From the NCBI GenBank assembly GCA_003024985.2, contig PXIH01S0015472.1: a stretch of DNA of 20,496 nt; one strand, given 5' to 3'. The stretch is from Euperipatoides rowelli (taxonomy: Eukaryota > Onychophora > Udeonychophora > Euonychophora > Peripatopsidae). Both the position numbers and the translations under genes were made by a program. Of this stretch, positions 1-19,780 are shown piece by piece (within the stretch, counting starts at the first letter, position 1; every line of letters starts with the position of its first letter). The notes under the pieces were generated by a model. That model had not been told where the DNA came from. It worked only from the letters and a program-made list of their open reading frames with translations, and ran no database searches.

Positions 1-1154
1 TAGTACCGTAGATAATTTGTAAAAAAAAAAAAAAAAAAAATGAATAAAATTAACAAATCTATTATTAACTTGTAATTTTCTTATTTTAAGCAATTATTTT
101 AAAATGTATGAATTTAAATAGTAATTAATATGAATATTTTTTATAACAATTGTTCAATTTTATAATGTTTATAACAACATTTATAACAATGGCAAAGCTT
201 TGCTGGAGAATAATGCAGGTCGGCCAATAGTAAATTATGTTTGCAATAACCTGGATTACCACTTTTAACCTTTACGTATAATTATAGCAACAATGGATTC
301 AATCATTTGAATTAGCAGCTGACGATTTATTTAATTTATCAGCCTATCTGTGAAACGAAATGCTGTCAGTCTATGGAATAGCTAATGGCATTTACAACCT
401 TCACAACTGAGTAAAATATAAGCCAAGTATTAAATTTCTTCCATCTCAATTTATTGGGATAAATTAAATCTGTCAATGGATGCTTTCAAATCGGATTAAA
501 ATTCAACAGTTTTGAACTCCAACTAGAGTGAGATACTGTATCTTACATCTTTACTAGTTTTCAACAGCAAGTTCTCATCGTTCAGTTCCAGGAAATAGCC
601 AATATCCTTTTATTAATAATCTTGTTAAATAAAGATTGCAGAACTATATATTTCTATAAACAATATTTCAGTCCGGACATAATAATACAATAGTGCTATA
701 AACTGAATTTGCATTTCACACATTCACTTTCTATCTATCCAACGCTTCTTTACAAATGTATTTCTAATTTTATAATAATAATTTATACATTATTATTCTA
801 TTGTTATAGATTTTGCTAGTCTTTTAAACTGATTGCATTAAATTAATTATATTCTAATTTATATGCTGTAGGAATCTTATTTATCTCTTCAGAGATCACA
901 TTTCTATAACCTTAGTGATCTCTCATCAGCTTACAAAAATAATTTTACCTAAAATATTTGTTAATAATTTCCTCTAAACCCTTTTACCACTCAGCTATGA
1001 TTTGCAGGTTGCTTTGTCCTAACTATGGCTCTGCATATGCTGTACATACAGTAGGTTATTTGCATTAGAAAAGTTATTTATTACAAACTTTAGTACTGTA
1101 CTATAATTTCCAAATTATACAAGATTAAACAAATATATAAAAATGAAATATTAC
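1..1154. other. Non-coding AT-rich stretch downstream of the PALB2 exon
   Basis: No convincing exon, RNA gene or transposon was found on either strand. On the minus strand it follows a splice donor at 1154-1153, so it should be the last intron of PALB2. The expected last exon (the seventh WD40 blade, starting in phase 2) was not recognised here. It begins with a run of 21 A bases. Confidence 0.5.
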
Positions 1155-1291
1155 TTAGCATTCTGTGATTGAGACTTTTTTAGTGGAGTCTGCAAATTGT
1201 TGATTGTGTGCATATTCATTGTGGCAGGATTAACAGCAATTAATCGAATATTGCATTTCGCTTCCCAAGCAAGAATAAGAAACAACAGACC
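1155..1291 (-). CDS. PALB2: PALB2 late WD40 exon (homologue of human exon 13)
   Basis: This is a 137-nt exon with acceptor TTCTATAG before 1291 and a GTAATA donor after 1155. It is read in phase 0 and leaves phase 2. The translation opens GLLFLILAWEAKC and continues RLIAVNPATMN. From memory, human PALB2 has GLLFIVLSHPCAKES followed by QLIVINPKTT at the same place, within the WD40 propeller that binds BRCA2. Human exon 13 is also phase 0 in and phase 2 out (149 nt). The frame meets a TAA at the donor if it is not spliced. The exon upstream in the transcript is 13610-13520, which lies 12 kb away in this scaffold. Identity rests on the motif match plus phase agreement; no alignment was run. Confidence 0.8.
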
Positions 1292-1595
1292 CTATAGAAT
1301 AATAAAAAAATCTATTAAGTATCTATAGCAACAACAAAATAAAAATAGATTAATGAAACAAATTGACTAAAAGCTTTCCAATTAACAAAAAAAAAACAAA
1401 AAACAATTATAATGCAAATTTCAGAATTAAATCAGTTGTAATTAGTAGCATTTTTAAAATTTGTTCATAATATAAAAAAAAGATTGATTTGTATACAGTA
1501 TATTATTAAAGGTTTATTTATTTATATATATTAACAACAACAATTTACATGAAAAATGTTATTGCCAAATGATAATGATAAACTAATCAATTCTA

Positions 1596-1596
1596 N
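1596..1596. other. N: probable contig junction
   Basis: A single N lies before a run of A. Exon order requires the pieces holding the exons at 13520-16255 to sit between the PALB2 exon at 1155-1291 and the one at 3936-6764. This is the only N in that interval, so it is the likeliest place for them. Confidence 0.6.
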
Positions 1597-3210
1597 AAAA
1601 AAAAAGACAAAGAAAAAAATGGAAGATTTAGAGGCAAGGGAGTCTTCAAACTAAAAGGGAAAAAGAAAATGTCATAATGTATAATTAATTTTTGTAATGT
1701 TTTGTTAATTAATGTAAATGGATAATCCATTGTATAAAGGAAATTTTCCTTACATTAAATACAGTAAATAAAAAAAAAGTTATTTAACCTCTCTACGGAA
1801 ATTCCCCTACAAGTACTTCCATGCTATTTAATTTATTTCTCGTCCATGGGAGTAATAGAATCAAATAGCAGACCATATTTTTTTCCCCCACTCTGTTTGT
1901 ATAGCACTTTTCTACTTCCATTCAATAAGTCACAAGATACTAAAATGAAACAGACAGCTTAATTTCATTGTGGAGATAACTTCTGAAGTGATTATCTTGT
2001 TTATGGTCACGGTATAACATAGGTTCACCAACTTCTGTTTCTATTACAGCTGGGCTTCAACCAAAAATATTCAATAATATAGAGGGTCCAATGTGAAATA
2101 CAACATAATAATTATTAGGCAACTAGTACCCATAATCTGAAGGAAATAGTAGAGTTTCCCTTCCATTTGCTGGTGACAGTTCGGAACGGTAGGGGAAAAA
2201 ATCAGTTTTGACAACTTTAGGCAGAAATTTCATGGGTTATGAAGTTTTTTTTATATCATTTCAGACCACAGTTTTGAAATCTCCATGGAATTTCGAGTCA
2301 ATATGATAAATTTTAAGGTTTTTCAGGCAATAATTGTCTTGGAATGTTTAATTGAAATAATGTTTTGTGGTTTAGACAAACTGTAACATGGAAAACACCT
2401 AAATTAATTTTCAGAGCCAATAAGGGAAAAATAAAAAATATGGGTTATATTTATTTATAGATGCTACATACCAAATTTTATTGATATTTGAGATGGTTGT
2501 GTGGACAAATCTAGCAAATAATTTTTGGTTGGGCTGTCAGCTTAGCTTTCAGTCCACTCATTAACATGCTTTTAAAATCTTGGTGGATAGATTATCTGTT
2601 TATGAAAAAAGGAAAATTAAAGGAACCAGTGTTTGCACATGAGTAGCTGTATGTGGCAGTGAGAAGAGCCAGAGATGAGGATAGTTTTAAAATTTATGTT
2701 GCTAGGAAAGAAAACCCAAGAAAGATTTCTGAAGAATGGAAATAATTGTATTGAGGAAGTTGTTACTCCATCATTTTCGAAGATTTTTAAGCCACAGTAT
2801 TTATAAAAAATCTAGAGGTTCATTAGACTAATCTATATAACAGTCATTTGAGTTTGGGAAAATTTCTTTGTCCCTGGGAAATTAATTGGCTAGGCTTTAT
2901 TCAATTACATGATTCTTTTTATCATGGATCAGGCAACTGCTTATTACATCAACAGTTTTTCAAAATGTGGAAAATGAAAAAAAAAGAAAAAGTATTTTCC
3001 TAATGGAACAGCCATTAACACAAGTCACTTTTGGCCTTTTAATTCTCAAACATTTTTTTTTTCAATGCATGGAAGTGTGCCAAGTGAGAATTTTTAGTTT
3101 GGACAGTCAACTTTGGTGTCCCATATCATTAGTGCATTTTAGCACAAGTAAGGGGGTCCACACAATATGGGTATCTTTTTAAATGACTTAAATAACCTAT
3201 TTGATCATTT
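1597..3210. other. PALB2 intron sequence with decayed repeats
   Basis: On the minus strand this follows the central PALB2 exon, so it is intron. It has no intact reading frame. The short plus-strand frame at 2967-3182 has no recognisable domain. The exon for the first WD40 blade was looked for on the minus strand (a Trp-rich stretch with splice borders) and was not found. A short helicase-like remnant is annotated separately. Confidence 0.5.
2605..2745 (+). pseudogene. Decayed PIF1-type helicase C-terminus, probably from a Helitron
   Basis: In one plus-strand frame the remnant reads KEPVFAHE, stop, LYVAVRRARDEDSFKIYV, then ARKENPRKISEEWK and a stop. PIF1-family helicases, including the helicase half of Helitron Rep-Hel proteins, end with a motif VI of the form HGQLYVALSRV followed by a short tail. 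The internal stop falls where the conserved Gln (CAG) would be, so a single C-to-T change would explain it. No upstream helicase motif, Rep domain or Helitron 3' hairpin was found. Only the C-terminal scrap is supported, and a cellular PIF1 relic is possible. Confidence 0.45.
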
Positions 3211-3585
3211 CAGTGGTGGATCTAGGCATTTTTGTTGGGAGGGTGGAGGGGACAAAGTTGACTTCTGCTACACCTTAATTTCTACAGGTGTTATCCCCAA
3301 ACAAATATCTTGAAAAGTTTCTATAACAAAAAACAATAATTTTTTTTTGTATGAACATTTTGATAAACATTAATCGTTATTTCACATTCATATTATTATT
3401 AAAGATGGACAACTTTATATTAACTTTGTAATCTACATTTTTGGTTGAGCGCCCGTGACCACACATTTATTTCCTAACATCAAAAACTTAATACATATAC
3501 TGCGTAAATTTTTAACTGCATGGTCCAGATGTGACACAGGGGTGGTTGTCCTTTCTTGCCCCCCTCCCCCTTAGATCCAGCACTG
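3211..3585. mobile_element. hAT-type MITE with 8-bp target duplication
   Basis: A 375-bp non-coding element. The left end is CAGTGGTGGATCTAGG. The right end, read inverted, is CAGTGCTGGATCTAAGG. The flanks are GATCATTT (3203-3210) and GATTATTT (3586-3593), an 8-bp duplication with one mismatch. CAGTG ends with 8-bp duplications are typical of hAT transposons. There is no transposase frame, so it is non-autonomous. It lies inside a PALB2 intron. Confidence 0.85.
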
Positions 3586-3935
3586 GATTATTTAGCCTTG
3601 CCTATAGACTATTATTTGTACAGTGTTCTTCAATGTTAAATTTTTCCCTAAATTATATATCTTAACCATTATACTTATACTAAATGTTATTTTTTATTAC
3701 TGAATTATTATTTGACACACCTTAAAATATATTCATTGCTTTTGTTTTCATTACAAAGATCTATCTTTTAATCAGGTTAATTTCACTGACTGTGACTGCT
3801 AAAATAGAGAGTCTGCCTAAAAATATGCTACACAAAATTCAATTTATATATTTAGACATTTTAAAAATCATATAAGCAATAACAAGAGAGTTGAAAATTT
3901 TAATATGAATAAAGATTACAAAGTTAAATACTTAC

Positions 3936-6764
3936 CTGCAAACAGACAGGTTCCACTTGTATATATGTAATGTCCTTAGTGGCATTTACTTGACTGTTGT
4001 TTTCTTTTGTTGTCTTCATATTTCTATTAGTAAGTTTTGGGATTACAGTTTCAATTGAAGGAATTTCACAACACTCTTTTTTATAACTGATACGATCATT
4101 TTCAGTTGTTGTCGTTAGTTTAGTTTCATCAGGTCCATTTTCACTGGGATCAATATTTGCATTTAATGGAATATTATATTCAATGGATGCATCTAATTTA
4201 GTTGTTTTTATTGTAGAAACAATTCCACTATGATCAATATTTACATTTAAAGGAGGAACAGCACTTTCAATTGGCGAATTCAGTCCAATTAGTTTAGTTA
4301 TTTCTCCTTTAACAAAAATTTCACTCGGATAACTATTTACATTTGTAGGAACATTATTTTCAATTGGCGAATTTAGACCCATTAGTTGAGTTGTTTCTTC
4401 TTTAACAATAATTTCATATTTATGACTATTTACATTTATAGAAACAGCTCTTTCAATAGGTGAGTTTAGCCGTTTTACTTTAGTTATCTCAAACGTACAA
4501 TTATTTACATTTAAAAGATCATCAGAGGTGATAATTGGAGACTTTAGTCCATCTAATTTAGCAGTTTCACAGAGATCATTATTTACAAAATTAGAAGGAA
4601 TATCAACAATTGGTGACATGAGTACATCTCTTTCTTTAACAGTTTCACAGGGATCTATGTTTACATTTAAAATAACTTCATTGGATGACTTTATTTTATA
4701 CAGTTTAGTTTCTTTTTTCTCAGCCAATTCACACTGATCAATATTTACATTTAAAGTATCAATTATTGATGACTTTTGCATATCTAATTTAGTTTCTTCT
4801 TCATTAATTCTTTCATGACAATCAATATATACATTTAAAGCATCATCTATTGATGACTTTGGCCTATCTAATTTAGTTTCTTCTTCATTAATTCTTCTAG
4901 GAGAATCAATATTTACATTTAAAGATACATCCGCTGTTGATTCTAACACTTCATTTTCTTCATCAAGACTTTTGCAGGGATCAATGTCAGGTTGAATTTG
5001 TGATTCTGGCCTACCAATGTTTGGTAGTTTACGCTCTACCATTTCAATTTTAACATTTGAATTTGACAGCATTTGAAAACTATCAATTGAATTGGAAGGA
5101 TGTGAGTTGGAATCCTTATAAGCAAATGTATTGCCATTTTCTTTTGATATCAAATCATCAAAATGCTGATCTTTCGGACATTTTGGCGAGTTAGAAGAAT
5201 TTTCTGATAAATATAATTCACTTTCAGGAATAACTTTTATTTCTTTTTCAATTTCCTCAGAATGTGAATTAGGTAATATAGGATTAAAATCTGGTGATTT
5301 TATATAGGGCGAGTTTTGTTCCTGGGAAAAGACTAGTGTATTATTCAATACTTTGTTATTTATATATTTCAATGACAGCTTTGGCAATGTTTTGGGCTGG
5401 CCATATTCACCAACTCTAATATCACCTTCAGTTTCATTTATATTTAAATTGGATTTAGACTGATTTTGACCTACATCACTTGTTTCAACATTTAAATTCA
5501 AATCGTATGGAAGGAATAAAATCCTATTTTCATCTGACTGAGGTGTTAGAGAATACAATTTGTCTTCACTGTTACTATCAGAATTTACTTCTATTTTACT
5601 AGAAAAGTTTGATTCTTCTTGACTAATACATAATTTACTTTCTACAACTGCTGACATTGATTTATGAACTTTATTATTATCTTTGGCAGTTTTAGGAAGA
5701 AATCTGCTCAGTATACTTAAATCACAGGAACGTCGCCTTTTCAAAAGAGATAGCTTTAGATTTACATAGTCATGATCAGGTAGAACAAAATCAGTTTCAC
5801 ATTTTAATAAAAAGGATGGAAAAGATGGGAAAGCAATTGGAGAACCATTGCCATTGTTAAACAAAACTGAATTATTTTCCGAAGATCGAGTAAAGTCATT
5901 GTTTAGATGTTCTAAATTTAAAATTTCCTTTGAAATTATTGTGGCCTGCCTGTCATTTTTAAATTTACCCAAGTCTTTAAGTGATTGAATTTTTACAGAG
6001 TTGCAATCATCAATTGAGCTACAATTGTCATTATTTGTTTCTTTTGGTGTATCAGAAATTTCTTTAGCTGACCATTTATCTTCAGAAATAATACAGTTGG
6101 GTTTATATTCTGTACAGAATAACTGCAGTTTTTTAGACACGTTGATGTTTTTGATTTTGAGACTTTTATTAAAATTATTTTTTGAAGTCAGACTTGAACT
6201 TTGGGCTATTATTTTTGAATCTAATTTAGGATATTGATTATAATCTAGGCATTTTTTTAATCTTTTGTAATTTTTATGAGTTGATGGCAATTCTAAACTA
6301 TTCAAACTATCGGATAATCTTTTAATTTCATGTTTTCTTGTCTGTATTTTTGTTTTAATATCTGTTTCAGGTGGAATAATGTTTTCTTCACTATATGAAA
6401 TTGATGCTTCAGTTTTAAAAGGATGTTGTCTGATCACAGAATCACTTATAAGTACCAGTGAATCATTAGTCTTTGTATTTTCTGTTAATATAAGTTCTGA
6501 AGCAGATTTTTTTACAAGTTTCTTTATAGATATATTAGACTTTTTTTCTTGTGTCCCAATATCACTTTGTTCATCTGTATTAAATTTAACAAATATTTTA
6601 TTTGGTTTCAAATGCTTCTTGTTCACACTGGATTGCTTGTCAAGGCTATCTACGGGTTGAGGTATAGCTGGCAATTTAAAATCCTCAGGGGAATTATGGA
6701 GCTTGTATTGATCCAGTAATCGTTCTTGTACATATTTCTTTACTCTTGCAGCTCTTTCAGATTT
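3936..6764 (-). CDS. PALB2: PALB2 giant central exon (coiled-coil tail to middle region)
   Basis: This is a 2829-nt, 943-codon open exon with acceptor TTTTAATTGTAG before 6764 and donor GTAAGT after 3936, phase 0 at both ends. PALB2 bridges BRCA1 and BRCA2 at DNA breaks and helps load RAD51. The exon starts KSERAARVKKYVQE, matching the human coiled-coil segment RAQRAEKIKHSIKK exactly where human exon 3 begins, also in phase 0. A second match lies at about 5755-5799: TDFVLPDHDYVNLKL against human TDFQLPDEDFGPLKL (from memory). A KRRR cluster follows and could be a nuclear signal. The last third is a tandem-repeat array. Most of the rest is low-complexity, Ser/Asn/Lys-rich and presumably disordered. 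The first Met in the frame (6674) is internal to the exon and should not be taken as the start. Human exons 3 to 6 or 7 appear fused here. Confidence 0.88.
4127..4945 (-). repeat. About ten tandem 25-32 residue repeats inside PALB2
   Basis: On the minus strand, units read LNVNID, then a variable stretch, EETKL, and KSSI or (L)NSPIE. Ten units can be followed in series, with lengths of about 28, 28, 28, 25, 26, 25, 31, 32, 28 and 30 residues. The first three are the most alike. On the plus strand the DNA signature is a recurring TCAATATTTACATTTAA or close variant. Divergence rises along the array, and the frame stays open throughout, so the repeats are protein-coding and tolerated. They lie between the conserved TDFVLP block and the WD40 exons. 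Confidence 0.85.
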
Positions 6765-7539
6765 CTACAATTAAAATATTATAAATTGAAATTATTCGAT
6801 GAAATTTATTTTATAAATAGTTAATTGCAATTTGAAGTCAACTGTATATTTTGTTTGTCAATACTATTAATAGAAATTTGTCATTTTTTTAAAGAACAAA
6901 CCAAAAGTGCAGTTTATAAGTTAGGGGACCAATGTACAGAAACACACAGCTGAGATCTTAAGAGGGTTACCTGCTATAGCTGACTAATTTTTTAAATTAT
7001 TATTCAAATTTAACCAAACTTTGGGCACACATATACAGTATATATATGTTACTAAAATGTTATTATTTATAGAAATTTTAGGGTCTACTAGTCACCGTTG
7101 CCATGGATACGGCGGCCATATTAGTTCTAGTATAGTCATTTTGCTCCATTTTGTATGGAAAAATTACAGATCATAAAAACTTGTAACAAAGTTTTATCTA
7201 CTCTTAAATGTCTATAGTATGCAATGATATACTCATTTTTTTAAAATTTTGATTTTTAAATTAATTTTTAGCATCAACAAGAGATAAGTAAACTTTTACA
7301 ATTTTTCGGAATTTACTGTTTACATCATATTTAACCTTTAATTATATTTAAATGCTTCAAACTTACTTATTGCATTGTTTGATATATACCTTATCTGTAT
7401 TCAAAGTTTCAGATCAATATCTCTTTCACAGGCAAAAATATAGAAAGAGCAACTTTCAAAATTTGTTAAAATTCAATTTTGAGATATTTCAATTCAAACA
7501 TGTAGGCTATTTAAATTTTACCGACGCTTGTAACCATTG
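6765..7539. other. PALB2 intron or upstream sequence, no gene seen
   Basis: Upstream of the central exon on the minus strand. The preceding PALB2 exons (start codon and first half of the coiled coil) were searched for here and not recognised. A GC-richer patch around 7090-7120 (CCATGGATACGGCGGCCATA) stands out from the AT-rich surroundings and may be the end of an old transposon. Its partner end was not found. Confidence 0.4.
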
Positions 7540-8189
7540 CTGAGTCAAATGGCAGTACTGGGATCTCTAGAACACTTCCCATTAGTAAACAGCGTCCTGC
7601 AATTCAAGGTGATCCCATGACATTTGATATGGCTGATGATAATTTAGTTGAAAGGCTAATATTGGATGTAAAAAATAAATCTGCAATGAGAGTTGATGGT
7701 ATTAATGCTAAAATTTTAAAATTGTCTCTACCAGTAACTCTGGTTTATATCACTCATATCATAAACTGCTCACTAAAATTAGGAACTGTTCCTAGTGTTT
7801 GGAAACAGGAACTAGCCTAATCACTCAAATATATAAAAATGGTGATAAAAAGGATCCAAATAATTATAGACCAATATTATTGCCTATAATTAGCAAAATT
7901 TTAGAACGCATTGTAAAACTACAACTACATTCATATCTTTGTGATGAACAGAGTAGGTTTCGGAAAAAATATTCAACCGAAACTTGTTTGTTAAAACTCA
8001 CAAGTGATTGGTATAGTGATATTGACAAAGGTAAAATAATTTTAATGACAACACTTGACCTGTCTAAAGCTTTCGACAGTATACCTCACAATAAATTACT
8101 ACAAACACTAAAGTTGTTAAATCTTGCACCAGTTGTCTTTGAATGGTTTAAAAGCTATCTGGAAAATAGAAACCAAGCAATATTACTAC
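7540..8189 (+). mobile_element. LINE-A, reverse transcriptase first half (frameshifted)
   Basis: A non-LTR retrotransposon relic, truncated on its 5' side, with no endonuclease visible. Reading frame one is open from about 7540 to 7820 and contains KSAMRVDGINAKILK and VPSVWKQ. The second frame (7799 onward) continues with QIYKNGDKKDPNNYRPI, then SRFRKKYSTETCLLKL, and the catalytic block TTLDLSKAFDSIPHNKLL, in which the first Asp of the RT triad is present. The switch between frames near 7810 is a frameshift. The sequence runs to the N at 8190 and resumes at 10369. The motif set (IYKKGDK.DPNNYRPI, later PQGSVLGPLLF and YADD) fits the Jockey/CR1/L2 group of LINEs. Confidence 0.85.
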
Positions 8190-8190
8190 N
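8190..8190. other. N: contig end sharing 17 nt with the piece starting at 10369
   Basis: The 17 bases before the N (8173-8189, CCAAGCAATATTACTAC) are identical to the 17 bases at 10369-10385, right after the next NN. This is what two contig ends that should abut would look like. A 17-bp target duplication around an insertion is a weaker alternative. Confidence 0.75.
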
Positions 8191-8239
8191 GGTTTGAGTC
8201 CTTTACAATTATATTAGCTATTGTTTGTATACTGCATAT

Positions 8240-9345
8240 ACAGTGTATATACTGTTATATACAGTAGGGTGGAGTGAATATAATATAATTTATTTTTCTA
8301 CTTATAATTTCTAATAGTTTAAATAGTATTAGAAAGTTGTCTCTTGCCATGTTATGATAATGTAATGTAAGTTTAATAAAACTGACAAGACTTTGAGGTG
8401 CCACAGTGACGTTGAACTTTATATATTGGAACAAAATTTAACGTCTTAGTGAATATAATATTTTTGTTTTTCAAGTTTCAATTTATAATAGTGTGATAAA
8501 GTTCATTTTTGCTTGTAGGATAATGCAAAAGCTTCCAAAACCTTGACACAATATTTTGAGGTGCCACAATGACATTGAACTTTAAGTATTCCAGCAAAAT
8601 TTAATCTCTAGACTAGTGATGTCCAACTGAAATTATTTGTCGGGACAAAAAATATATAACTGGTCTATTGTCTATACATTGACTAAATTTGGTTGTAAAT
8701 AATTTAATAAGCTTTTTTTTTTTTTTTGGTTGTCTGGACGTTTTGATAACAGAAAGGATAAAATTTGCTAAGATTTTTTTTTTCCTGTTAACTTTATAAG
8801 GGCCGCATAAAAGCTTCAATTGGACAGTATGCGGGCCGCGTCTTGGATATAGCTGCTCTAGGGAATAGAATTGGAGAATTTGTTTTTTCAAGTTGCAATT
8901 TCTATTATCGTAAAAAAGTTTATTCTTGTTTCATCATGACAATGTAAAAGTTTCAGAAATTGACGATATTTTGAGGTGCCACAAATGACCTTGGATTTTA
9001 TGTAATGGAGAAAAATTTATCATCCAGTGAATATAATAGGATAATTTTTATTTTCAAGTTGCAATTTCTAATAGTGTGAAAAAGTTTCTTCCTACTTTTA
9101 TTATGATAATGTAAAAGTTTCCTAAACCTGACACAACATTTTGAGGTACCACAATGATCTTGAACTTTACATATTCCAGTGGAATATAACTTCAAATTAG
9201 TATAATAGGATAATTTGGTTTTTTAAATTGCAATTTCTAATATTGTGAAAGTGTCTTCCTGCCCTCATTATGAAAATGTAAAAGTTTCTTAAATCTAATC
9301 GAACATTTTGAGGTGCCTCAATGATTTTGAACATTACCTATTGGA
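8240..9345. repeat. Tandem repeat, unit about 163-170 bp, five copies
   Basis: The block TTTTGAGGTGCCACAATGA recurs with small changes. TTTGAGG starts at 8392, 8555, 8970, 9140 and 9307, giving spacings of 163, 415, 170 and 167. The long interval equals one unit plus a 242-bp MITE. Each unit also carries TTCAAGTTGCAATTTCTAATAGTGTG and ATGATAATGTAAAAGTTTC in fixed order (each split here by variation). No coding potential is seen. In the corrected order this array lies in the PALB2 intron between the 13520-13610 and 1155-1291 exons. Confidence 0.85.
8614..8855. mobile_element. hAT-like MITE inserted in the tandem repeat
   Basis: The left end is TAGTGATGTCCAAC and the right end, inverted, is CAGCTATATCCAAG, matching at 10 of 14 positions. 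Flanks CTCTAGAC (8606-8613) and CTCTAGGG (8856-8863) match at 6 of 8. Removing the element restores a normal-length repeat unit, which supports these borders. The inner right end has a GGGCCGC motif repeated twice. There is no transposase, and a run of 16 T bases lies at 8711-8726. Confidence 0.7.
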
Positions 9346-9829
9346 CTGAACATTTAAACACAATGTACATCTTCATAATAGGATATTTTATGATACATTT
9401 AAATACAATATTGCTACAGTAATAGTTTAATTCTTAAATTTAAATGTGTTTACTGGAGTAATATAATGTAATAATCCTTAAGGCAAATCAACAACTGTTA
9501 CAAAACATTCTACAATTATCTTACCGAAGTACGCTACTTGAAAATTTACCGAAGGTCAACAAACTAAATCTGTGCAATAGTGTTTCAATCCCAACATCTC
9601 AACTTCCGCTAAAATGTCAACTTACTACTTTTGTGCCTTGAAGCCTAGATGACATCACTTCAATCTATATTACAGCACGGGCTAAATGGAAAGCATACCA
9701 GAACCAGGATGTACATCGGAATGATTGGACAGTTGTATAACGGCTTTGAATCAAAGGTCTAGCCTGGGGTTGACTGTCAGCCCATACAGCAAAACTACAA
9801 CAAATTCTATTCCTACACTGTTCCTGGTA

Positions 9830-9877
9830 TCTTTCTGTGAGGTGTTCCCCGGTTCTTTCTGTGAGGTGTTCCCCGGT
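9830..9877. repeat. Exact 24-bp tandem duplication
   Basis: Two head-to-tail copies lie at 9830-9853 and 9854-9877, each starting TCTTTCTGTGAGGTG and ending TTCCCCGGT. They are identical, so the duplication is recent. On the minus strand the unit reads ACCGGGGAACACCTCACAG. Confidence 0.95.
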
Positions 9878-9883
9878 CCAGCT

Positions 9884-10060
9884 TTAGTCAAGTTCCAGAG
9901 ATCCATCCTGCTGACATAATCCGTTCCTGACCAATGCTTTAGTCAAATCCTCAACCACTGTTTGCTTCTGTACCCGCAGCTGATCAATATGACCATTCTC
10001 CACTTTTTTCTGTCTTGCAATATTGACTGGAAGCCTAGCAACCTTTTCGTCGAAGCTGCA
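9884..10060 (-). pseudogene. Unidentified 58-codon coding-like fragment
   Basis: The frame is open from the codon after an in-frame TAG (10061-10063) to a TAA at 9884. There is no Met, so it could only be a terminal exon or a relic; TATAG or GTGCAG near 10050-10065 could act as a splice acceptor. It reads VARLPVNIARQKKVENGHID, then QLRVQKQTVVEDLTKALV, then RNGLCQQDGSLELD and stop. It is charged, probably helical, and unlike the low-complexity frames around it. The family was not recognised. It sits inside the TIR element and is not part of PALB2 as far as can be judged. Confidence 0.35.
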
Positions 10061-10086
10061 CTATAGTACAAAATTCTTCGGTAAGA

Positions 10087-10347
10087 TACGAACATTATTA
10101 TAAACCATTGCATACTATAACCAATGACAGTTATAAATTGTTATATATATATATTTATATATTCTAGATTGCCATAATCTTGTAAATTTCTAGTGTTGAT
10201 CATATTTATTTATAAATGTTATTTTATGTCTTTCGCTTACAGCATAATTTATGCTAAATAAACGTTGTTTGGCGATCCATGAATGCGAACCTCCGCCTCG
10301 GAGAACGCACCCAATGATAAGATAATTTATATTTCCAAGTTTACTTT
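10087..10347. other. Non-coding stretch with a possible polyadenylation signal
   Basis: No coding frame is supported. The segment around 10230-10310 (CTTTCGCTTACAGCA, then GCTAAATAAACGTTG, then a GC-rich patch CTCCGCCTCGGAGAAC) looks like the 3' end or LTR-like end of some element, with AATAAA at 10256-10261. No matching copy is in the window to confirm this. Confidence 0.25.
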
Positions 10348-10366
10348 ACACACACACACACACACA
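10348..10366. repeat. (AC)n microsatellite at a contig end
   Basis: Nineteen bases of AC repeat directly before the NN at 10367-10368. Another AC repeat (12980-13000) starts right after the N at 12979, so these two ends can be joined. Confidence 0.95.
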
Positions 10367-10368
10367 NN
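10367..10368. other. NN: contig junction
   Basis: Separates the microsatellite end on the left from LINE-A coding sequence on the right. The base composition and content change abruptly. Confidence 0.8.
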
Positions 10369-11076
10369 CCAAGCAATATTACTACAAACACTAAAGTTGT
10401 TAAATCTTGCACCAGTTGTCTTTGAATGGTTTAAAAGCTATCTGGAAAATAGAAACCAAGCAAACAAATGTAGGCTCCTCTGAATTTATATTAAATCACT
10501 TTGGAGTGCCTCAGGGCTCAGTGTTGGGCCCATTGTTGTTCATACTTCTTATAAATGATCTACCAGATATATTAAATCACTGTAAAATGTCACTGTATGC
10601 TGATGATGCCACTGTATACACAAGTGGTTTTGACTTGAGTGTCCTAAAAAGCAATATGGAATATGACCTAAATATAATTTCCAAGAGCCTAGCCAGAAAC
10701 GGTCTCCTATTAAATGGCAGCAAGACTGGATGCATGGTTATCGGCACAAGAAGAAATCTGATAACACATAAAGCAAAAAGTTTCTTCCTATATCTATACT
10801 CAGAGAAAATCTATGCGGAAAACAACATTAAGATACTAGGTTTAAATATCGACAGCCTATTAAGTTGGGAATATCACTTAAAGGAACTTGCAAAGAAAAC
10901 AATGAATCTAAACAAGTTACTATTCAGAATCCACCCCCTCCTTAACTATAATGTGCTCTCCATAATTTACAATGCTCTTATAGCATCACAATTAAAGTAT
11001 TGTGATATTGTCTGGTCACAATGCAGTGATTCTCAACAAAGTTGCAGGTGGTCTCAAACACGGCTGCAAAGGAATT
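10369..11076 (+). mobile_element. LINE-A, reverse transcriptase second half
   Basis: The first 95 bases repeat the end of the piece before 8190, including FEWFKSYLENRNQ. A one-base insertion near 10473 then shifts the frame. The rest is open to 11076: SSEFILNHFGVPQGSVLGPL, then LLFILLINDLPDIL, then the catalytic YADDATVY near 10597-10620, and KYCDIVW near 10997-11017 toward the thumb region. The PQGSVLGPLLF and YADD blocks place it with Jockey/CR1/L2-type LINEs. The frame ends at the border of an inverted repeat (RT sequence VSNTAAKE is reached in another frame), so the ORF is broken. Composition is ordinary here, unlike LINE-B. Confidence 0.88.
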
Positions 11077-11653
11077 AGTTTCTTGTCTTCTCTGGAATTT
11101 CATTCCACAATTTTGGCCGCAGTGTAGAAGGATTTACTTCCTATTTTTGTGTTTCTGTGTCTTATGAATAGATTTTCTGTTTTTGTAGACCGTGTATTAT
11201 GATCATGCATAATTTCATTAGTCGTAAATAGGTTTCCAAGATAGTCAGGTGCTTGACCATTTTTGCACTTCCATAATAAAGTTCCATAGTGTAGATTTCT
11301 TTTATTTTTTTTTAACGATGTCTAGTTTAACTTCATTTTTGCCTCCGTGGCGCTATGTCTTTGGTGGGGGAAGACATATCGCCATTGAGGCAAAAAAGAA
11401 GTTAAACTAGGCACCGTTAAAAACTAAAAGGAATCTACACTATGGAAATTTATTATGGAAGTGCAAAAATGGTCAAGCACCTGACTATCTTGGAGACCTA
11501 TTTACGACTAATGAAATTATGCATAATCATAATACACGGTCTACAAAAACAGAAAATATATTCATAATAGCAGAAACACAAAAATAGGAAGTAAATCCTT
11601 CTAATACACTGCTACAAAATTGTGGAATGAAATTCCAGAGAAGACAAGAAACT
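11077..11653. repeat. Large foldback made of two LINE-A 3' segments
   Basis: The left arm 11077-11361 is the reverse complement of the right arm 11371-11653, with only scattered mismatches and a spacer of about 9 bases (TGGTGGGGG). The right arm is in LINE sense and encodes the C-terminal part: LLWKCKNGQAPDYLGDLF, HNTRSTK and then LWNEIPEKTRNSN in another frame. The left arm, read on the minus strand, encodes the same segment, GTLLWKCKNGQAPDYLGNLF, and keeps its frame longer. The arms differ at several bases, so they are not an exact copy of one another. Confidence 0.9.
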
Positions 11654-11715
11654 CTAATTCATTTGTATCTTTCAGAAACTCTTACTATGGTTTTTTTGTG
11701 TTCTCAGAATTGTTG
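11654..11715 (+). mobile_element. LINE-A end of ORF
   Basis: Continues the right arm of the foldback in the frame SFVSFRNSYYGFFVFSELLN and ends at TAG around 11718-11720. This is the usual LINE C-terminal tail after LWNEIP. The 3' UTR follows, with no clear poly-A or microsatellite end. Confidence 0.6.
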
Positions 11716-11720
11716 AATTA

Positions 11721-12239
11721 GTATGAATAATAATGTGGTTAATCATTGGTGGTTGAAAAATTTGGCAAATGCATTGTCTATATTAATATATTTTCCTATA
11801 GATTTTAAGTTATTTACTCAACAATGGATCTAGAATATCAACATAACTGATGAAGATCCTGCTAAAAATAGTAATAGTAATAGTGTTTTTATAAGCACAA
11901 ATTGTAAGCGTCGGTATCGGCCATTTTGTTTACAGGATGATGACATAGTGAAAAATCATGTCATTTCTTGTTGGCAAATTAGCACTCTAATTGTATATAC
12001 ATTAACATCATTATGATGTCGATTTTAAATACCCTGTAAATGTAAACGTGTGTAAACGCTACCTCCACAGCAACATTACTCTAATTATATGACATAAACC
12101 ACACTTTTTTAAACGTCAGAAAATAAATTATTATTTTTACCAATAGAGGGAGAATTATTGCTTTAAAAAAGATCTCCTACTTGATGGCTAACTGTTACAT
12201 GTGTTTTTGATTTTGATTGCGATTTTTATTATTGTGGAT
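11721..12239. other. No gene seen between LINE-A and LINE-B
   Basis: AT-rich, with a GTAAGCGTCGGTATCGGCC patch near 11906. Its core (TAAGCGTCGGTA) is close to the reverse complement of TACCGACGCTTGTAA near 7520, just before LINE-A. This could be the two ends of one older element that LINE-A inserted into. No long coding frame is seen, only a 36-codon minus-strand frame starting at an ATG near 11943. Confidence 0.35.
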
Positions 12240-12978
12240 TTAATGTGGTGAAGGAAACTTCGGTTATTAGGATTTGGAGGAGTTGGCTGGGAGCTAAGGG
12301 AAGTATACATTATTTTTAATTTTTTGGGTTATTTAGGGGTTTGAAGGGTATTTTGGGTATACCGTAATAAAATTTTGAAAAATTTTTAAGGGTAAAATGT
12401 TTTTGAGGGAAGTTTTCCTTTTACTTTGGTGGATATTTTTGGGGGGAATTTAAAATAATGTTATTTTGGGAAGTATTTATTTAAAATTAATTATAGTTTT
12501 GGATAATAAGTTTTGGATATGGAATTAATAGATGGGTTTTATAAAAAAGTAATATAAATGGGTTTCTAGTCAGTATGGATTAACATTGAATTTGGGGCTT
12601 TGAATTAGTAAGGGAGTTGTTAAAAAAATTTAGGGGTAAATATTAATTTAGAATTTTAAATAATTTAGGGGTGTATTTCAAATAATTTAGGGGAAGTTTA
12701 ATTTTAATTTAATTTGTAGTTTTGTTAATAATTTAGAGTATGGATTTTAATGTTGATATTACAAAATGAATTTAGGATTTGGGGTATTGAATAACGTTAG
12801 GATTAGGTTTTATAATTAGAAATTGTAAGTGAGGTATAGAGTTTTGATTGGGGTATTTGGGATTGGATTTTTAATATATTTTTTAGTTTATTTAGTATAG
12901 GAGATTTTAGAAATGATGGAGGGGAATGGTGAAATGGGGGGGGGGGTAAGGGTGTAAAGTGGGAAATGGGGGAATAGA
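12240..12978 (+). mobile_element. LINE-B, 5' portion (C-poor, G-rich)
   Basis: Base composition changes abruptly at about 12240 to long stretches of G, T and A with almost no C, and the same composition resumes at 17183. The last 18 bases (12961-12978) are identical to 17183-17200, so the two parts are adjacent ends of the same element. No coding frame was recognised here; it is presumably 5' UTR or decayed ORF1. A run of 11 G bases lies at about 12937-12947. Confidence 0.65.
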
Positions 12979-12979
12979 N
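12979..12979. other. N: contig end sharing 18 nt with the piece starting at 17183
   Basis: GGGAAATGGGGGAATAGA occurs at 12961-12978 just before this N and at 17183-17200 just after the N at 17182. Confidence 0.8.
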
Positions 12980-13000
12980 ACACACACACACACACACACA
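12980..13000. repeat. (AC)n microsatellite at a contig start
   Basis: Twenty-one bases of AC repeat begin immediately after the N. This matches the (AC)n end at 10348-10366. Confidence 0.95.
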
Positions 13001-13519
13001 TCATTTTATACTAGATTTGTAAGGTGGGAAATCGGGAATTTAGTTTTCATACTTAGGATTCCATGTTTGCCATATGGAAAACACGAATTCCAAACCCATA
13101 TTGTTTAAACTACGAGCAGTCTTACAAAATCCCAGCTCTCTTAATGTCCTGTTTGGTTCTTTGAAAATATGATAAGGCTTACAGAAAGTACATGATTATA
13201 TGAAATAATCATGAACACAGAATTTTTTAACTAGTATTCTGAAGATATTATTATTTTACCTTAGACAATTCACTTCAAAACACCCAACTCTTGATTAACT
13301 GTATTAAAATATTGATAATGAAATTTGATTTTATATGTGCTTAGGGTCAATTAAATTTTTATGGAGATAATTAAAAATACAATATTTATCAAACTAATAC
13401 TTTGTTCATTATCAAAAAAATGGAAGTTAATTCCTAATTTTGTTATTTTTTTCAAAGGTCAATTTGGGATTGACCTTTGCAAGTACATTGGTTGAAAGCA
13501 ATTTTAATATTTTTCTTAC
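13001..13519. other. PALB2 intron, no feature
   Basis: AT-rich and without coding frames or recognisable repeats. On the minus strand it follows the donor at 13519-13518. Confidence 0.5.
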
Positions 13520-13610
13520 CGCTTCAGCAGCTGCAAACAAACAAGTTTTGACATGTAAAAGCTGAGCTTCTAAGAAAATGGTTTTGACCAACTGGCAACT
13601 GACATGATTC
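13520..13610 (-). CDS. PALB2: PALB2 WD40 exon (homologue of human exon 12)
   Basis: A 91-nt exon with acceptor TTTATTGCAG before 13610 and donor GTAAGA after 13520, too short to stand out as an ORF. The first base completes the Trp codon begun in the previous exon, and it leaves in phase 0. It reads NHVSCQLVKTIFLEAQ, then LLHVKTCLFAAAEA. The human segment is NLKTGQLLKKMHIDD, then SYQASVCHKAYSEM (from memory), in human exon 12, which is 88 nt with the same phases. The continuing sequence (GLLF...) is found at 1291-1155. The next minus-strand acceptor in the scaffold as given is instead 6764, also phase 0, which would give a scrambled protein. Confidence 0.85.
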
Positions 13611-14642
13611 CTGCAATAAAGTGATCAAAATTATTATGTGATTTAAAATCTTAGGAATAATTTCTAAATTTATTTTTCAATACTAAACAATATTTTTTTG
13701 GGATTCAATATTTTTTTATTATAGAATACTTTGCTAAGAACATCTAATATCTTTAATCTTCAAGATTTTTTTAAATCAAAAGTTTGATTTCCAAGATTTC
13801 TGGGCCTCTGAGACCCAGAAAGACCAGATTAAGCTTAGCTCACCAATCCGTTAATTTAATAAAGAAAAAAAAATTGTCCAGACTTAGACTGTGATAGTCA
13901 GTTTTGTTTATTCCATTTATTGTTACTTTTCAAAACACAAAAAACTCATTCACATATCCTTAACCTTTACCAGTGAGTCCAATACTGTAACCCTGTGTTC
14001 AGGGCTGGAAGGAACCCATGTTATGGATTAGAAGTTGGAGCTTTTCTTGAATAAAATAAAATCTGTTCAAATGCCACCAATTAAAACGTAAAAAGTGAGT
14101 TGCTAAAAGTTGTAAACAAGAAAATATAGCCAGGTGACTGCAACTCAGGCTTTTTTTCCATACACATGGCAAGTATCACTGCTGTCGAAGAGCAGAATAA
14201 GAAAAGTTAGGTCATAGAGACTTAATGTTTCATGGATATTAAACCAAAGAACGTTGCTCAATATACAAAAACTAACTAAGCCTTTTCTAAATATTAAAAA
14301 AAAATTTTCCTTGCTTACTCCCTTACCACTAACTACTTGCCTGTATACCTTGATGGTACATGTACTACCAATTATCAACTACTGCTTTATAGGAAATAAA
14401 TATATCAATCCTTATATATCGGAAGTAATACTATTAAAAAGTTGACCAAACATGTAAGCTGTTAATACCCATAATTAGATCTATTCAAATTGATAGATTA
14501 TGGCAAAAACAAATAGTTAAAAAGTTATAGGAACATAAAAATATTATTTTACATTGTAAATGGAATAAATAATTCTAAACTTTCATACCATTAAAGTTGT
14601 CTAGAAGTATTTTTGAAAAAAAAAAAAATAAGCAATTCTTAC
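13611..14642. other. PALB2 intron, no feature
   Basis: About 1 kb of AT-rich sequence between two PALB2 exons. The overlapping short frames at 14145-14445 on both strands have no recognisable domain and no splice context. Confidence 0.55.
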
Positions 14643-14870
14643 CATATCAGAATTTTTTCTGGAGTTAAAGTCAGTAATGCTTCTGGTAATTCTTCTATTT
14701 TGTTAATTGATAATAGCTTGTCATCAATAACCATTCTCCTTTTTTCTTGATTCTTACTGTCTCCGGTAATAATTATTTCAAGCAATGTTTTGTTTAAAGA
14801 CTGCTGCGATGTAATTAGAAATTTGTTCTCTTGAATGCCAAACATATTAAAATTAACATCATCTAACAAG
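14643..14870 (-). CDS. PALB2: PALB2 WD40 exon (homologue of human exon 11 and adjoining blade)
   Basis: A 228-nt exon with acceptor TATATTTGCAG before 14870 and donor GTAAGA after 14643. It enters in phase 2 (AG from 16101 plus C gives Ser) and leaves in phase 2 (TG plus G gives Trp). It reads NKFLITSQQSLNKTLLEIII, and later MVIDDKLLSINKIEELPEAL, then LTLTPEKILIW. Human PALB2 has [20 protein letters not shown] and [20 protein letters not shown], then EALLGTTIMNNIVIW (from memory). The LPEALLTL...ILIWN block is the strongest single match in the window. Both blades belong to the C-terminal propeller that contacts BRCA2. Confidence 0.9.
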
Positions 14871-16100
14871 CTGCAAATATAAACATAAACTATGATTTGA
14901 ACACACTACATTACAAATCTCAATTTTTTTAAAAAAAAAAATTAGTTTCTAGAAGCATTACATTAATGAAAAATCTTTATCTGAATATCAGGGTTTAAGC
15001 TGCCACTAGCATTTTAGCCAAATGCTAATAAATCTAAGATTTTTCTCATTTTTGTCTCGGCATAATTAGCAAAAATGATAATTAGGTCATTAAAATAAAT
15101 GTCTTGTTTCTCATCCAGTTATGGTCCCAAAAATTACCAGGCAGGCAGGTTTTTTTTTTTAATATTTTAGTGGTGAAAAACCAGCATCAGGCAATTAAAA
15201 AAAAAAAAAAACGTTTTTTAATACCAGTAGTTATTTTCATCAAAAAATTAAACCCAGAAAGCTACATATAAATAAATAACATGCTGACCAAGTGTAACAC
15301 CCCATTCCTATTTTAGCATGTCTTGGACAGCATGGATGTATAAATAGAAGCGTATAGGAAGAAAATATTTTTTTTAAACAGAGTTGTATCATTTTGGAAT
15401 AGTTTACCAGAAAAAGTTGTTGAATCTAATTCAGTTGAATGTTTTAAGCTTAGGTTAAATGATTTTACAGATAGTTTAAGTATTGTTAGTTTAACTATAT
15501 GAATATAGGCTAGTTTGAATTGTTCTAATTGTTTTGTTTTTATTTTGGAATAGATTGGCAAAAAAGAAGTAGGGAACCTAGTTTGATCTGTTGGATTTTT
15601 TTTTTTTTTAAAGCATGGTTGAGTTTATTGAGGGTTTAACTAGTTAGGTACTGCAATGGGTACTATATATACAGTAATTGATATTTTTTAAATTAAAATT
15701 TCCAAGGACAAAAATTAAAAAATAATAAAAATAAAAAAAGATATAAAAAAAATAATTAAAAAATCTTAGAATAGCACTAGGAACAACTTTGCTGGACTGT
15801 GGTCTGTTGTTGTCCCCATATTTGTATTTGTTGAGAAATAAAGTTTCATTAAAAAAAAATATTGAATTTATAAAGCAGAGAAAAAAAAAATAAGATTTAT
15901 AAAGGCATCAGGAATTTTCTCTTATTATTATAATTTAAATAAATTTAAATACATAAAGAAAAGCATATACCCGGCAACTTTTAGAAGCATCCGCCCATGC
16001 TGAGAAACAATATTTTTTTTTAGTGGCCTTCTGTATACATTTTTAAATGTGAATTAGCCTAGTAAAAATATATTGTATATCAAATTTGTTTTTAAACTAC
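14871..16100. other. PALB2 intron containing a LINE 3' end
   Basis: Apart from the LINE remnant given separately, this is A- and T-rich intron with several homopolymer runs (for example 15199-15213). No other exon was recognised. Confidence 0.55.
15338..15860 (+). mobile_element. LINE 3' end (C-terminal scrap, 3' UTR, poly-A)
   Basis: The plus strand reads IEAYRKKIFFLNRVVSFWNS, then LPEKVVESNSVECFKLRLND, and ends at a stop near 15500. FF..RVV..WN.LP..VV...SV..FK is the usual C-terminus of CR1/L2/Jockey-type LINE proteins. The 3' UTR ends with AATAAA (15837-15842) and a short A-run at about 15850-15858, as expected of a 5'-truncated insertion. It lies antisense to PALB2 within an intron and is a different copy and subfamily from LINE-A. 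Confidence 0.75.
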
Positions 16101-16255
16101 CTCATATCTTCAAGAAGATTAACGGATGATTTATTCATCTGGTGACTTTCATACAAATAAAGTTGACTGGTGTTATCTGGATTAGATGTAATAAAAGGAA
16201 TAATTACAGCCTTGTTTGATGGTAGCAAACAACAGCAAACCAATTTAGATGGTGT
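16101..16255 (-). CDS. PALB2: PALB2 WD40 exon (homologue of human exons 9-10)
   Basis: A 155-nt exon with acceptor TTTTTATAG before 16255 and donor GTAGTT after 16101, phase 0 in and phase 2 out. It reads TPSKLVCCCLLPSNKAVIIP, then FITSNPDNTSQLYLYESHQM and ends NLLEDM plus AG. In the human protein VYNLVCVALGN begins the same propeller blade, and human exon 9 also starts in phase 0. The match is weaker than for the next exon but the splice phase and order agree. The exon(s) before it, for the first blade with its Trp-rich strands, were not found between here and 17181 or between 1597 and 3935. Confidence 0.7.
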
Positions 16256-17181
16256 CTATAAAAACAAAATAAAAATTGGTCATAAACTCACTAAGAAATA
16301 AAATTACATAATCTGTAAATATGGTAATGAAAGTAGCATGATAATAGAATGACTGTTCTGGCAATTTGTTTTAAGTTTTTTTTATATTAGCCTATAACAA
16401 AACATTAATTTTCATTATTTGCCAGTAAAATAAAGAATTCTAGTATATTAAAAAAAAAATTAAAGTGTAAAATAAATTGGGCATTTGTTGAGTTTCTGAT
16501 AAAAGCCTTAAAAACATTAAAAAAAAAAATATTGAAAAATTTTTTTTTTTCTTATTGGTTCACAAGAAGAGAGTCAAGATGTTTCAGCCTGTCATTTAAA
16601 TTTATCTGATTTTATTAATATTATATAATAATTAAAAACAAATATTTGTAGAAATAAATTTTATTTGTATATTAATATTTATTCAAAGGCTTATGATTTA
16701 TTAATTAAGGACACTTATTGGATACATCTGGCAAACAGGAATGCTTTTATGTTCTTTTTTTTTAAGGGGGGAGGGAGCAAAACAAAATTAATGTGGAAGC
16801 TTTTATTATGTATATGTTTAAGCTTGGTTTATGATATGTCATAGCTTAATTTTGAGTTTGAAATATTGTAAGCCTGTTTTCTACAATCGGGTCCAGAAGT
16901 ATAATCCTTTATGTTTAAGCAAGGATTTTTTTTTTAACCTGAGTTCTGTTAGACCTACTTAAAATTAGTGTCAGAAAATAAGACAAAAATGGTTTTACGC
17001 CGTTTATTAAAAGCAGATTAGTAATTAAATAACATTTTTTTTAAAAGTATCACTATATAACAGTGATACTACGCTTTTCTAAGTTCAAATTATTTATATT
17101 TTTTATGCTGTTAAGGTTTAAAGGGAAAATGAAGTCAAGTCCTAGAAGCCTATTTTTATTAAAGTTTTAAGCTGTACTAGT
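16256..17181. other. PALB2 intron, no gene seen; small hairpin near 17050
   Basis: No exon was recognised. AGTATCACT (17046-17054) and AGTGATACT (17062-17070) form a 9-bp perfect stem with a 7-base loop, possibly a MITE end or a chance palindrome. Confidence 0.45.
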
Positions 17182-17182: not shown

Positions 17183-18616
17183 GGGAAATGGGGGAATAGA
17201 GTAGGGAAGAGGGAGGAGAGGAATAAGGAAGGGTTAGTTGGGGATAGTGGGGTTTGTGGGAAGGATTGTAAGATTCTGGGTTCAAGGAATATGGTTCAAT
17301 GTGTGGGTTTGAGTAAAGAAGAGAGTAAGGGAATGTGGTTTTGTGGAGTGTGTTTGGATGATTTGAGGGGTTTTGGGGATGTTAGGAAAAGTTAGAGTGG
17401 TGTAAATAATAAATTGGGAAGTTGCATGGGATGTTGAAATGTATGGTTATAGGGAGGGAGGGGATGGAGGAATTAGGGATAAAATGGAAAAGGTTGGAGA
17501 AGATTTAGAAATAAGGAAATTGTATGGGGAAGAGATAGAATGGAAAAATAGGCTGGAGAGAGTAGAGAGGGAGTTGGCTTTATTAAATTTGGATTTGGGG
17601 AATGGTGAGGGAAATTTAAGGGGGGATGAAGTATATGTAGGGGAAGGGAAGAAAGTGGACTTGGGGGATGTGGCAGAGAGGGGAAGTGGGAGTTCGAGAG
17701 AGCTGGGGGTAGGGGATATTAGTTTTGATGAACGGGGAGTATAAGGATGGAGGAATATAATATGAATAGGTATGAGAAGCATGTTATTAAATTAATAAGG
17801 AGGGAAAAATTGAATGAGGGGTAGGGGTGGAGAGGGGGGTAAAAAAATTGAGGAAATAAAAAAGGAAAAAATGAAAGGTGAGATTTTATTGGGTGATGAA
17901 AGGGTTATGGGAGCAGGGGATTTTTGGTGTAGAGGAATGTGAGAATTATATAATATGGATGTGGGCTTGCTGCTGGAGAAAATGGGTTTAATTAGGGTGG
18001 CTAAGGATTATACAAGGGGGGGGGGTTTGGGTTTTTACCTATATTTATGGAAAGAAAAGAGGTTAAGGATAAGGGGGGAAGGGTGAATAAGTGTATTATG
18101 GACTTGTGTTTGGAGGGGGTTTATTTTGAGGATTTGGGGGAAGGATTGAGTAGGGATTGTTTTAAAAGTGGGGGATGTTTTTTAAATAGTAAAGGGGAGA
18201 TTTTTAAAAATTAAAATTAAAAAGGTTGAGTAAAAAAATAAAAGAAATAAGGAAGGGAGGGGATTATTGAAATTTGGATAAGGGAGAAGGGGAGAGGCAT
18301 ATTTTTAAAAGGAAAAGGAGGGTGGTAGATGGGGATGTAAGTATTGGGTTTATTAATATGCAATGAGGGAGGAGAGAGGATAAATGGTGGATTTAATGAA
18401 AACATGGAAAGGAAAGTTTAGGTATTTTGGGGATAGTTGCAACATATTTCAGGGGGGAGGCGATACCATTTTTGGAGGGAATGTGGTTTGGAAATAATAG
18501 GGAAGTAGAAGAAAAAAAGGGGTAAGGGTAGGAATTTGGGTGGACAATAATCTATTGGGAAATGATTGTGAGGTTAAAAGGGGTAAAGAATATTTATGGG
18601 TTGTGGGGGGGGGGNA
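17183..18616 (+). mobile_element. LINE-B, ORF1 region (decayed)
   Basis: Nearly C-free sequence. The clearest open frame, 17439-17744, starts MYGYREGGDGG and then forms a charged, heptad-like stretch (LYGEEIEWKNRLERVERELA) that suggests a coiled coil, as in many LINE ORF1 proteins. No zinc knuckle is visible; Cys and His codons are scarce. Downstream, frames are short and broken by stops. An N interrupts a G-run at 18615. Function is inferred only from its place ahead of the endonuclease. Confidence 0.5.
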
Positions 18617-19060
18617 GGAGATATAAAATTAGCAGTAGGGGTGGTGTATTTGGCGGTGAATGATAAAAATAATTAAGATTGGAATAGGGAAATTTTTAAA
18701 AATTTGTGGGAAGATTTAAGGGATTTTAGGGGTAAGGGCCATAAAATTATCTTGATGGCTGATTTTAATAGTCATATAGAGGAGTTTGAAGGGGAAAATA
18801 ATGATAATGGTTAAGTTATTAAAAGTTTTTTGTTTTAATATGGATGGGGTTGGTAATAGGGAATTTAAATAGGTTTTGTATAGGGGAAATAACTTGGAGT
18901 ATGGGCTGTCAGAATAAGGTGTTGATTTATATATTGGAGAGGGAAGGGGTGGATAAGATAGAGGAAATGAAAATATGAGATGAGATTGAAAAAAAAAAGG
19001 GTGTTTCAGATCACAAATTAATTATGATAAAGGTTAAAAGGAGGGGTAGAAGAGAAATAA
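18617..19060 (+). pseudogene. LINE-B apurinic-type endonuclease domain (broken)
   Basis: In one frame: AVGVVYLAVNDKNN, stop, DWNREIFKNLWEDL, then GHKIILMADFNSHIEEFEG. DFNSH (18761-18775) is the DFN catalytic motif of exonuclease-endonuclease-phosphatase-type LINE nucleases. In a second frame: GEITWSMGCQNKVLIYILE (TWS at 18892-18900), then a stop in IEEMKI-DEIE, and VSDHKLIMIKV (SDH at 19006-19014), the final catalytic His motif. Motif order and spacing are right for the family. A frameshift between DFN and TWS and two or more stops show this copy is dead. The stops at TAA and TGA could have come from CAA and CGA by C-to-T change. Confidence 0.8.
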
Positions 19061-19780
19061 AAAGAGTGGGGGTAAATTAAAGGAGGATGGAATATTAAGA
19101 AGAAAGGGGATTAGAGAATTTTAGTAATATGATGGGGAGTTTGGGAGAAGTGGATTATGGTTTGTTTTTGGATAATTTTAGGGAATTGGTGGGGAAGGCT
19201 TTTGGGGAAAATAAGGAGTTTGAAAGTAAAAAGATGAGGGGGAGGAAGGAGAGAGAGGGGGATAGGGAAATTAGTGAGTTAATAAAAAAGAGGAAGGAAG
19301 CTAATAAAAAGTATAAATTAAGTTTAAAAAAAGGGAAAAGGAGGAAATAAGGGTAAAGTGGGAGGAATATTTGAATTGCAAAAGGATGGTTAGGATTAAG
19401 GTGGGGGATTATAAGAGGAAATTGGATAGGAATTTAATGGAGAAATAAGGGAGGGGGTAAGGAGGGGTGTAGGAAATTTTGGGATTATGTTAAGGGTAGG
19501 AGTGAGGGGGGGGGGAGAAAAGGATTGTGGTTTAGATAGTGGGGTAATGTTGGAATTGCTAAATGAACATGCAATAAATATGCAAAGGGAGGAAGGGGGA
19601 AAAGGAAAAAGTTGGGAGTGTGTGCTATGAAAGGGAAGATTTAATCTTAAAGATGAGGAGCATGGAAAGCAGTAAGGGGTATGAAGGATGGTAAACAAGG
19701 GGTTTAGATGGGGTTGCTATGGAGATGTTGAATTGTTTGAAGAGCAAGGGTAGGGGTATTTTAGGAAAATTTTAAATGGG
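19061..19780 (+). pseudogene. LINE-B linker between endonuclease and reverse transcriptase
   Basis: An open frame at 19129-19350 reads LDNFRELVGKAFGENKEF and then EISELIKKRKEANKKYKLSL, the basic helical linker that follows the endonuclease in many LINEs. From 19350 to 19780 the frames are short and broken. Purine-rich throughout, with whole 60-base lines lacking any C (for example 19201-19260). Confidence 0.5.

Follow-up and report, generated by a model that had tools for sequence, protein, structure and literature searches.

Organization of the locus

The window analyzed here, i.e., the whole stretch of 20,496 nucleotides, consists of eukaryotic genomic DNA with a G+C content of 21-43% per 500-base window and occupies the right-hand side of a 29,836-base contig; the genome searched in this study comprises 100.9 million bases in 4324 contigs. 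Ns are located at positions 1596, 8190, 10367-10368, 12979, 17182 and 18615, five of which (1596, 8190, 10367, 12979 and 17182) had been named in the initial annotation of this DNA, while that at 18615 is one additional N. These interruptions of one or two Ns divide the window into six blocks, designated A to F, and as block F is itself split at 18615, seven pieces result:

1..1595, no strand: assembly block A, with the N at 1596; no terminal overlap with other blocks, its place before C being deduced from exon order only
1597..8189, no strand: assembly block B; its final 17 bases (8173-8189) are identical to the first 17 of D
8191..10366, no strand: assembly block C; its final 19 bases (10348-10366, a CA repeat) are identical to the first 19 of E
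10369..12978, no strand: assembly block D; its final 18 bases (12961-12978) are identical to the first 18 of F (17183-17200)
12980..17181, no strand: assembly block E, with three WD40 exons inside; its right end occurs once in the genome searched
17183..20496, no strand: assembly block F, with the additional N at 18615

Five exons of a gene for PALB2, the partner and localizer of BRCA2, are distributed over these blocks:

3936..6764, minus strand: PALB2 large exon, comprising the coiled-coil end, the middle region and the MRG15-binding motif (AG/GT borders, 943 open codons, start register)
16101..16255, minus strand: PALB2 WD40 exon (borders and phase; weak alone, with no Pfam match by itself and adding 2 points to the alignment)
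14643..14870, minus strand: PALB2 WD40 exon (borders, Pfam, 2w18, order scoring)
13520..13610, minus strand: PALB2 WD40 exon (borders, Pfam, 2w18, order scoring)
1155..1291, minus strand: PALB2 WD40 exon (borders, Pfam, 2w18, order scoring)

All five exons (5/5) are preceded by AG and followed by GT at the coordinates initially annotated, with lengths of 2829 (6764-3936), 155 (16255-16101), 228 (14870-14643), 91 (13610-13520) and 137 bases (1291-1155), and with start phases, in the same order, of 0, 0, 2, 2 and 0. Joined in this order, they form a single open frame of 1146 codons in which the expected split codons, AG/C for Ser and TG/G for Trp, are present, and the annotated succession along the minus strand (16255, 14870, 13610, 6764, 1291) was borne out. 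The accompanying statement that the exons join in frame only in the proposed gene order was not, although the phase shared by 13610-13520 and 6764 had been noted there: when the five exons were arranged in each of the 120 possible orders, eight were found to be open, among them the scaffold order 16255-14870-13610-6764-1291. The reading frame alone therefore cannot show that the exons are disordered, and it is homology to PALB2 that does so.

With respect to human PALB2, we take the large exon to stand for exons 3-5, exon 16101-16255 for exon 8 (by phase), exon 14643-14870 for exons 9-10, exon 13520-13610 for exon 11 and exon 1155-1291 for exon 12; the exon phases are presumably in agreement with those of human exons 8-12. 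Among PALB2 structures, 2w18/3eu7 represent the WD40 domain, 6e4h/7k3s and 8yap the coiled coil, and 7s4a the MRG15-binding segment.

The WD40 exons

When the four short exons were joined, a Pfam search returned the PALB2_WD40 family (PF16756) with an E value of 9.9e-9 (35 bits, cut-off 27), while a search of solved structures returned human 2w18 (E 3.7e-5) along one collinear stretch, the sole other match up to E 10 being an unrelated enzyme (E 0.28). The four joined exons thus encode a PALB2-type WD40 domain at the C-terminal end, whose first and last parts were not found in the window. No PALB2 match was returned by Pfam for single exons, for two exon pairs or for the first three WD40 exons without the fourth, nor for the two joins of full length, whether in the restored or in the scaffold order, and no PALB2 entry was matched by the full-length join among the solved structures. 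The homology signal of these exons, which is modest, depends on their joint reading. When the joined PALB2 exons were used as query, a large protein collection returned no relative and NCBIfam no match, and the identification of PALB2 is therefore based on Pfam and solved structures. Searching the genome of the window with the Pfam PALB2 family or with human WD40 letters returned nothing; the family search was also silent in control genomes, and neither empty result is proof of absence.

The order of the WD40 exons was scored against human PALB2 letters, which were partly checked by the 2w18 alignment. The order 16255-14870-13610-1291 scored 99, the highest of the 24 possible orders, followed by 97 when 16255 was moved to the last place and then by 73, while 1000 shuffles scored at most 58. 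Given these three scores, the succession of 14870, 13610 and 1291 is well supported by the alignment, whereas the position of 16255 among the WD40 exons is hardly supported. In addition, the Trp codon split between 14870-14643 and 13610-13520 aligns with a human PALB2 Trp, while the border between 13610-13520 and 1291-1155 directly precedes GLLF both here and in human PALB2; we take these to be the borders between human exons 10 and 11 and between exons 11 and 12, respectively.

The large exon

The large exon did not match any Pfam family. Its first twelve codons, compared to human residues 37-48 (human exon 3 presumably begins at residue 37), reached a score of 23, the next best among 2627 combinations of acceptor-like place and phase on the minus strand being 12. 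Of the N-terminal BRCA1-binding coiled coil, the window would hold the last residues only, the best-placed of the 2627, and the preceding exons were not found. A second segment corresponds to the MRG15-binding motif:

5739..5795, minus strand: MRG15-binding motif of PALB2, 11/19 residues identical to human, ranking first among 40,874 six-frame places

This motif reads TDFVLPDHDYVNLKLSLLK, versus TDFQLPDEDFGPLKLEKVK in human PALB2, and the stretch around it returned a single match among solved structures up to E 10, namely 7s4a_B (PALB2), at E 0.63. The human coiled-coil and MRG15-motif letters used here were checked. The large exon thus carries an MRG15-binding segment and, as judged from register and motif, belongs to PALB2, on weaker evidence than the WD40 exons. 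A coding tandem repeat is also located within it (4120-4924, minus strand), whose units mostly measure 84 bases (28 codons) and 93 bases (31 codons).

In human PALB2, the coiled-coil and MRG15-binding parts precede the WD40 domain, while on the scaffold the large exon lies between the third and fourth WD40 exons. The description of this exon as an N-terminal coiled-coil exon situated after most WD40 exons is thus correct as to its placement, but of the coiled coil it holds no more than the final portion. Taken together, the Pfam, structure, motif and register evidence agrees with the initial annotation in assigning the gene to PALB2 and in placing its exons out of gene order, with a disorder bounded by the named Ns.

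Terminal overlaps and interrupted mobile elements

The breaks of exon order coincide with the N gaps. A comparison of all ends of the seven pieces, in either orientation, identified three exact overlaps of at least 8 bases: B-D (17 bases), C-E (19 bases, in a CA repeat) and D-F (18 bases), each of which bridges over one block, while no such overlap was present at any of the six neighbouring joins (0/6). Among 200,000 random end/start draws in the window, an overlap of at least 8 bases occurred in 25 and one of at least 17 bases in two, draws touching an N or lying close together being scored as having no overlap. The C-E overlap, being a CA repeat, would be weak evidence by itself. It was also observed that the end of B (8095-8189) and the start of D (10369-10463) have 86 identical bases in common, which may represent a local assembly loop.

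Two mobile elements are likewise interrupted at the Ns:

8045..8179, plus strand: LINE reverse transcriptase, first half, block B (RVT_1 positions 70-109)
10476..11024, plus strand: LINE reverse transcriptase, continuation, block D (RVT_1 positions 117-205)
12220..12978, plus strand: cytosine-poor LINE, left part, block D (2.4% C)
17183..20496, plus strand: cytosine-poor LINE, right part, block F (2.2-3.5% C; reverse transcriptase at 19847-20476)

In B, the first LINE reverse transcriptase breaks off at profile position 109, to resume in D at position 117, and the cytosine-poor stretch breaks off at 12978 and resumes at 17183. Since the overlaps, the reverse transcriptase and the cytosine-poor stretch each skip one block, B-D-F would constitute one chain and C-E another, between which the scaffold alternates. 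Just past the block D reverse transcriptase, an inverted repeat is located (11162-11310 and 11419-11567), whose arms of 149 bases are 96% complementary and 108 bases apart.

A cytosine-poor LINE clade

The coding strand of the LINE located in the terminal part of D and in F contains 2.2-3.5% C and 26-38% G, whereas the other blocks have a C content of 13-16% and a G content of 12-17%. A DNA search of the same genome returned 27 other matches, and the 14 retrieved contain 3.4-5.7% C in the matched part. A protein search returned 149 matches, of which 30 were retrieved and 27 counted (including the window's own copy; three additional pieces of elements already counted were left out), these exhibiting 3.6-7.6% C at 41-100% amino-acid identity. 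Of 20 further places taken from the other 119 protein matches, 18 at 22-32% identity contain 10.2-23% C, and two (30% and 52% identity) contain 6.5-6.7% C. Cytosine poverty therefore marks a LINE clade rather than a single copy, the reverse-transcriptase coding strand containing approximately 4-8% C. In two other copies, the frame is open over the entire match (270 and 309 codons).

A single hypermutation event was ruled out as the origin of this composition, as the relatives are equally cytosine-poor and G is also raised; as the lowered C is accompanied by a raised G, a simple C-to-T change is insufficient. One guess is that the clade-wide strand asymmetry arises from steady strand-specific deamination in each life cycle. 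The clade is the most unusual side finding of this analysis and merits its own study. A literature search covering scaffolding errors, PALB2 evolution and C-poor retrotransposons retrieved no paper that describes such a clade or the present PALB2 gene order, which is not proof that none is in print.

Searches elsewhere in the genome

The joined protein, compared to the genome, returned five matches among the best candidates scored, all of them on this contig, exon by exon, and a second PALB2 copy, be it haplotype or paralogue, was not seen in the genome searched. A copy bridging the joins was also sought in the genome with end sequences of blocks A, B, C and E, and for each the full-length match was this contig only; partial matches were obtained for A (4 elsewhere) and for C (64 on other contigs and 2 nearby on this contig). 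Block C contains a tandem repeat (8385-9361) with a period of approximately 167 bases, and partial copies of the repeat sequence are present on many other contigs (8191-8850 searched).

An overlap that skips one block was not seen in 66 other loci (12 with single Ns, several representing the same place twice, and one more with a longer run), among which one overlap was found, between neighbours. One further contig possessed one usable N and no overlap, and the sample is too small to judge whether the error is systematic.

Restored order and alternative explanations

These data are best accommodated by an ordinary animal PALB2 orthologue on a scaffold whose contigs were wrongly ordered, a reading which we regard as very probably correct, and the exon disorder on the scaffold is, with high confidence, interpreted as an assembly artefact. 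The scaffolder would have interleaved two contig chains, C-E (with A ahead) and B-D-F, perhaps owing to misjudged mate-pair distances, and the most likely true plus-strand order would be A-C-E-(gap)-B-D-F. In that order, the minus strand reads 6764-3936, 16255, 14870, 13610, 1291, as expected for PALB2. No overlap is present at A-C or at E-B, and these two joins are deduced from exon order alone. In the output of some scaffolders, a single n marks gaps whose length is zero or negative. The passages of PMC6733440 consulted contain nothing on this convention. Points against misordering are the modest homology, the protein searches that returned no relative, the two joins lacking an overlap, the CA repeat in the C-E overlap, the skip-one pattern not being seen in the small sample of other loci, and the scaffold order itself being in frame.

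Were the locus truly scrambled in the genome, PALB2 would be broken or made by trans-splicing of two transcripts; the clean borders and open frame of all five exons (5/5) are compatible with such a rearrangement, as is the fact that the scaffold order is in frame. It would, however, have to coincide with the Ns, and to leave block ends that overlap second-next blocks and never neighbours, together with two unrelated mobile elements cut at the same Ns and resuming one block further on, which renders it extremely improbable. A reading in which PALB2 is produced from two separate transcripts joined together, the gene's N-terminal half being situated inside its C-terminal half, is likewise extremely improbable. 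The overlaps might themselves be explained if C and E had inserted into two LINEs, the 17 and 18 equal bases that flank C and E, respectively, representing target-site duplications. Yet C and E are each bordered precisely by Ns on either side, three PALB2 exons are located in E, and the end of C and the start of E lie in the same CA repeat, so that the likelihood of this scenario is considered to be minute.

A different objection is that exon 6764-3936 belongs to another gene within a PALB2 intron, in which case nothing would be out of order. This exon is without a Pfam match, its motif matches 7s4a_B at E 0.63 only, and, with phase 0 at both ends, it is joinable in 8 of the 120 orders. Against this stand its register, the best of 2627 places times phase, its motif, the best of 40,874, and the fact that the only structure matched is that of PALB2; moreover, the block overlaps reveal a misordering regardless of the identity of the exon. 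This proposition is therefore judged highly unlikely.

For the misordered PALB2 orthologue, no convincing counterparts of human exons 1-2, 6-7 and 13 emerged from the window when open stretches of chosen regions were inspected by eye and human letters were used in tblastn. The former covered minus-strand stop-to-stop stretches, with a minimum length of 18 codons in the regions 16200-17181, 1597-4000 and 1-1160 and of 25 codons in 6700-8189, while the tblastn search of human exons against the window was weak, recovering two of three exons known to be present. Human PALB2 possesses two phase-0 exons (6-7) between the counterparts of 3936 and 16255. These may lie in an unassembled gap at the E-B join, where such a gap is expected since the join has no overlap; exons 1-2 would be situated beyond the contig's right end, and the place of exon 13 would be left of position 1155.

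Significance and comparison with known systems

Because the scaffold order is in frame, the warning that a gene predictor may silently join 13610-13520 to 6764 is justified: gene prediction may build a chimeric PALB2 without any alert, or PALB2 may be scored as broken in this species, which is of concern to anyone using this assembly. A screen for overlaps between non-neighbouring blocks detects such errors from the DNA alone, and is applicable to all scaffolds with single-N gaps.

The gene described here resembles known PALB2 in its WD40 exons, which are collinear with 2w18, in its MRG15-binding motif and in the register of its coiled-coil end. It differs in that several exons were not found, and in that one large exon, which contains a coding tandem repeat, takes the place of three human exons. 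Contig-ordering errors in short-read scaffolds are of a known kind, and the present case shares with them the one or two Ns between blocks, the short unmerged overlaps and the repeats at block ends; unlike those errors, the two chains here alternate regularly, block after block.
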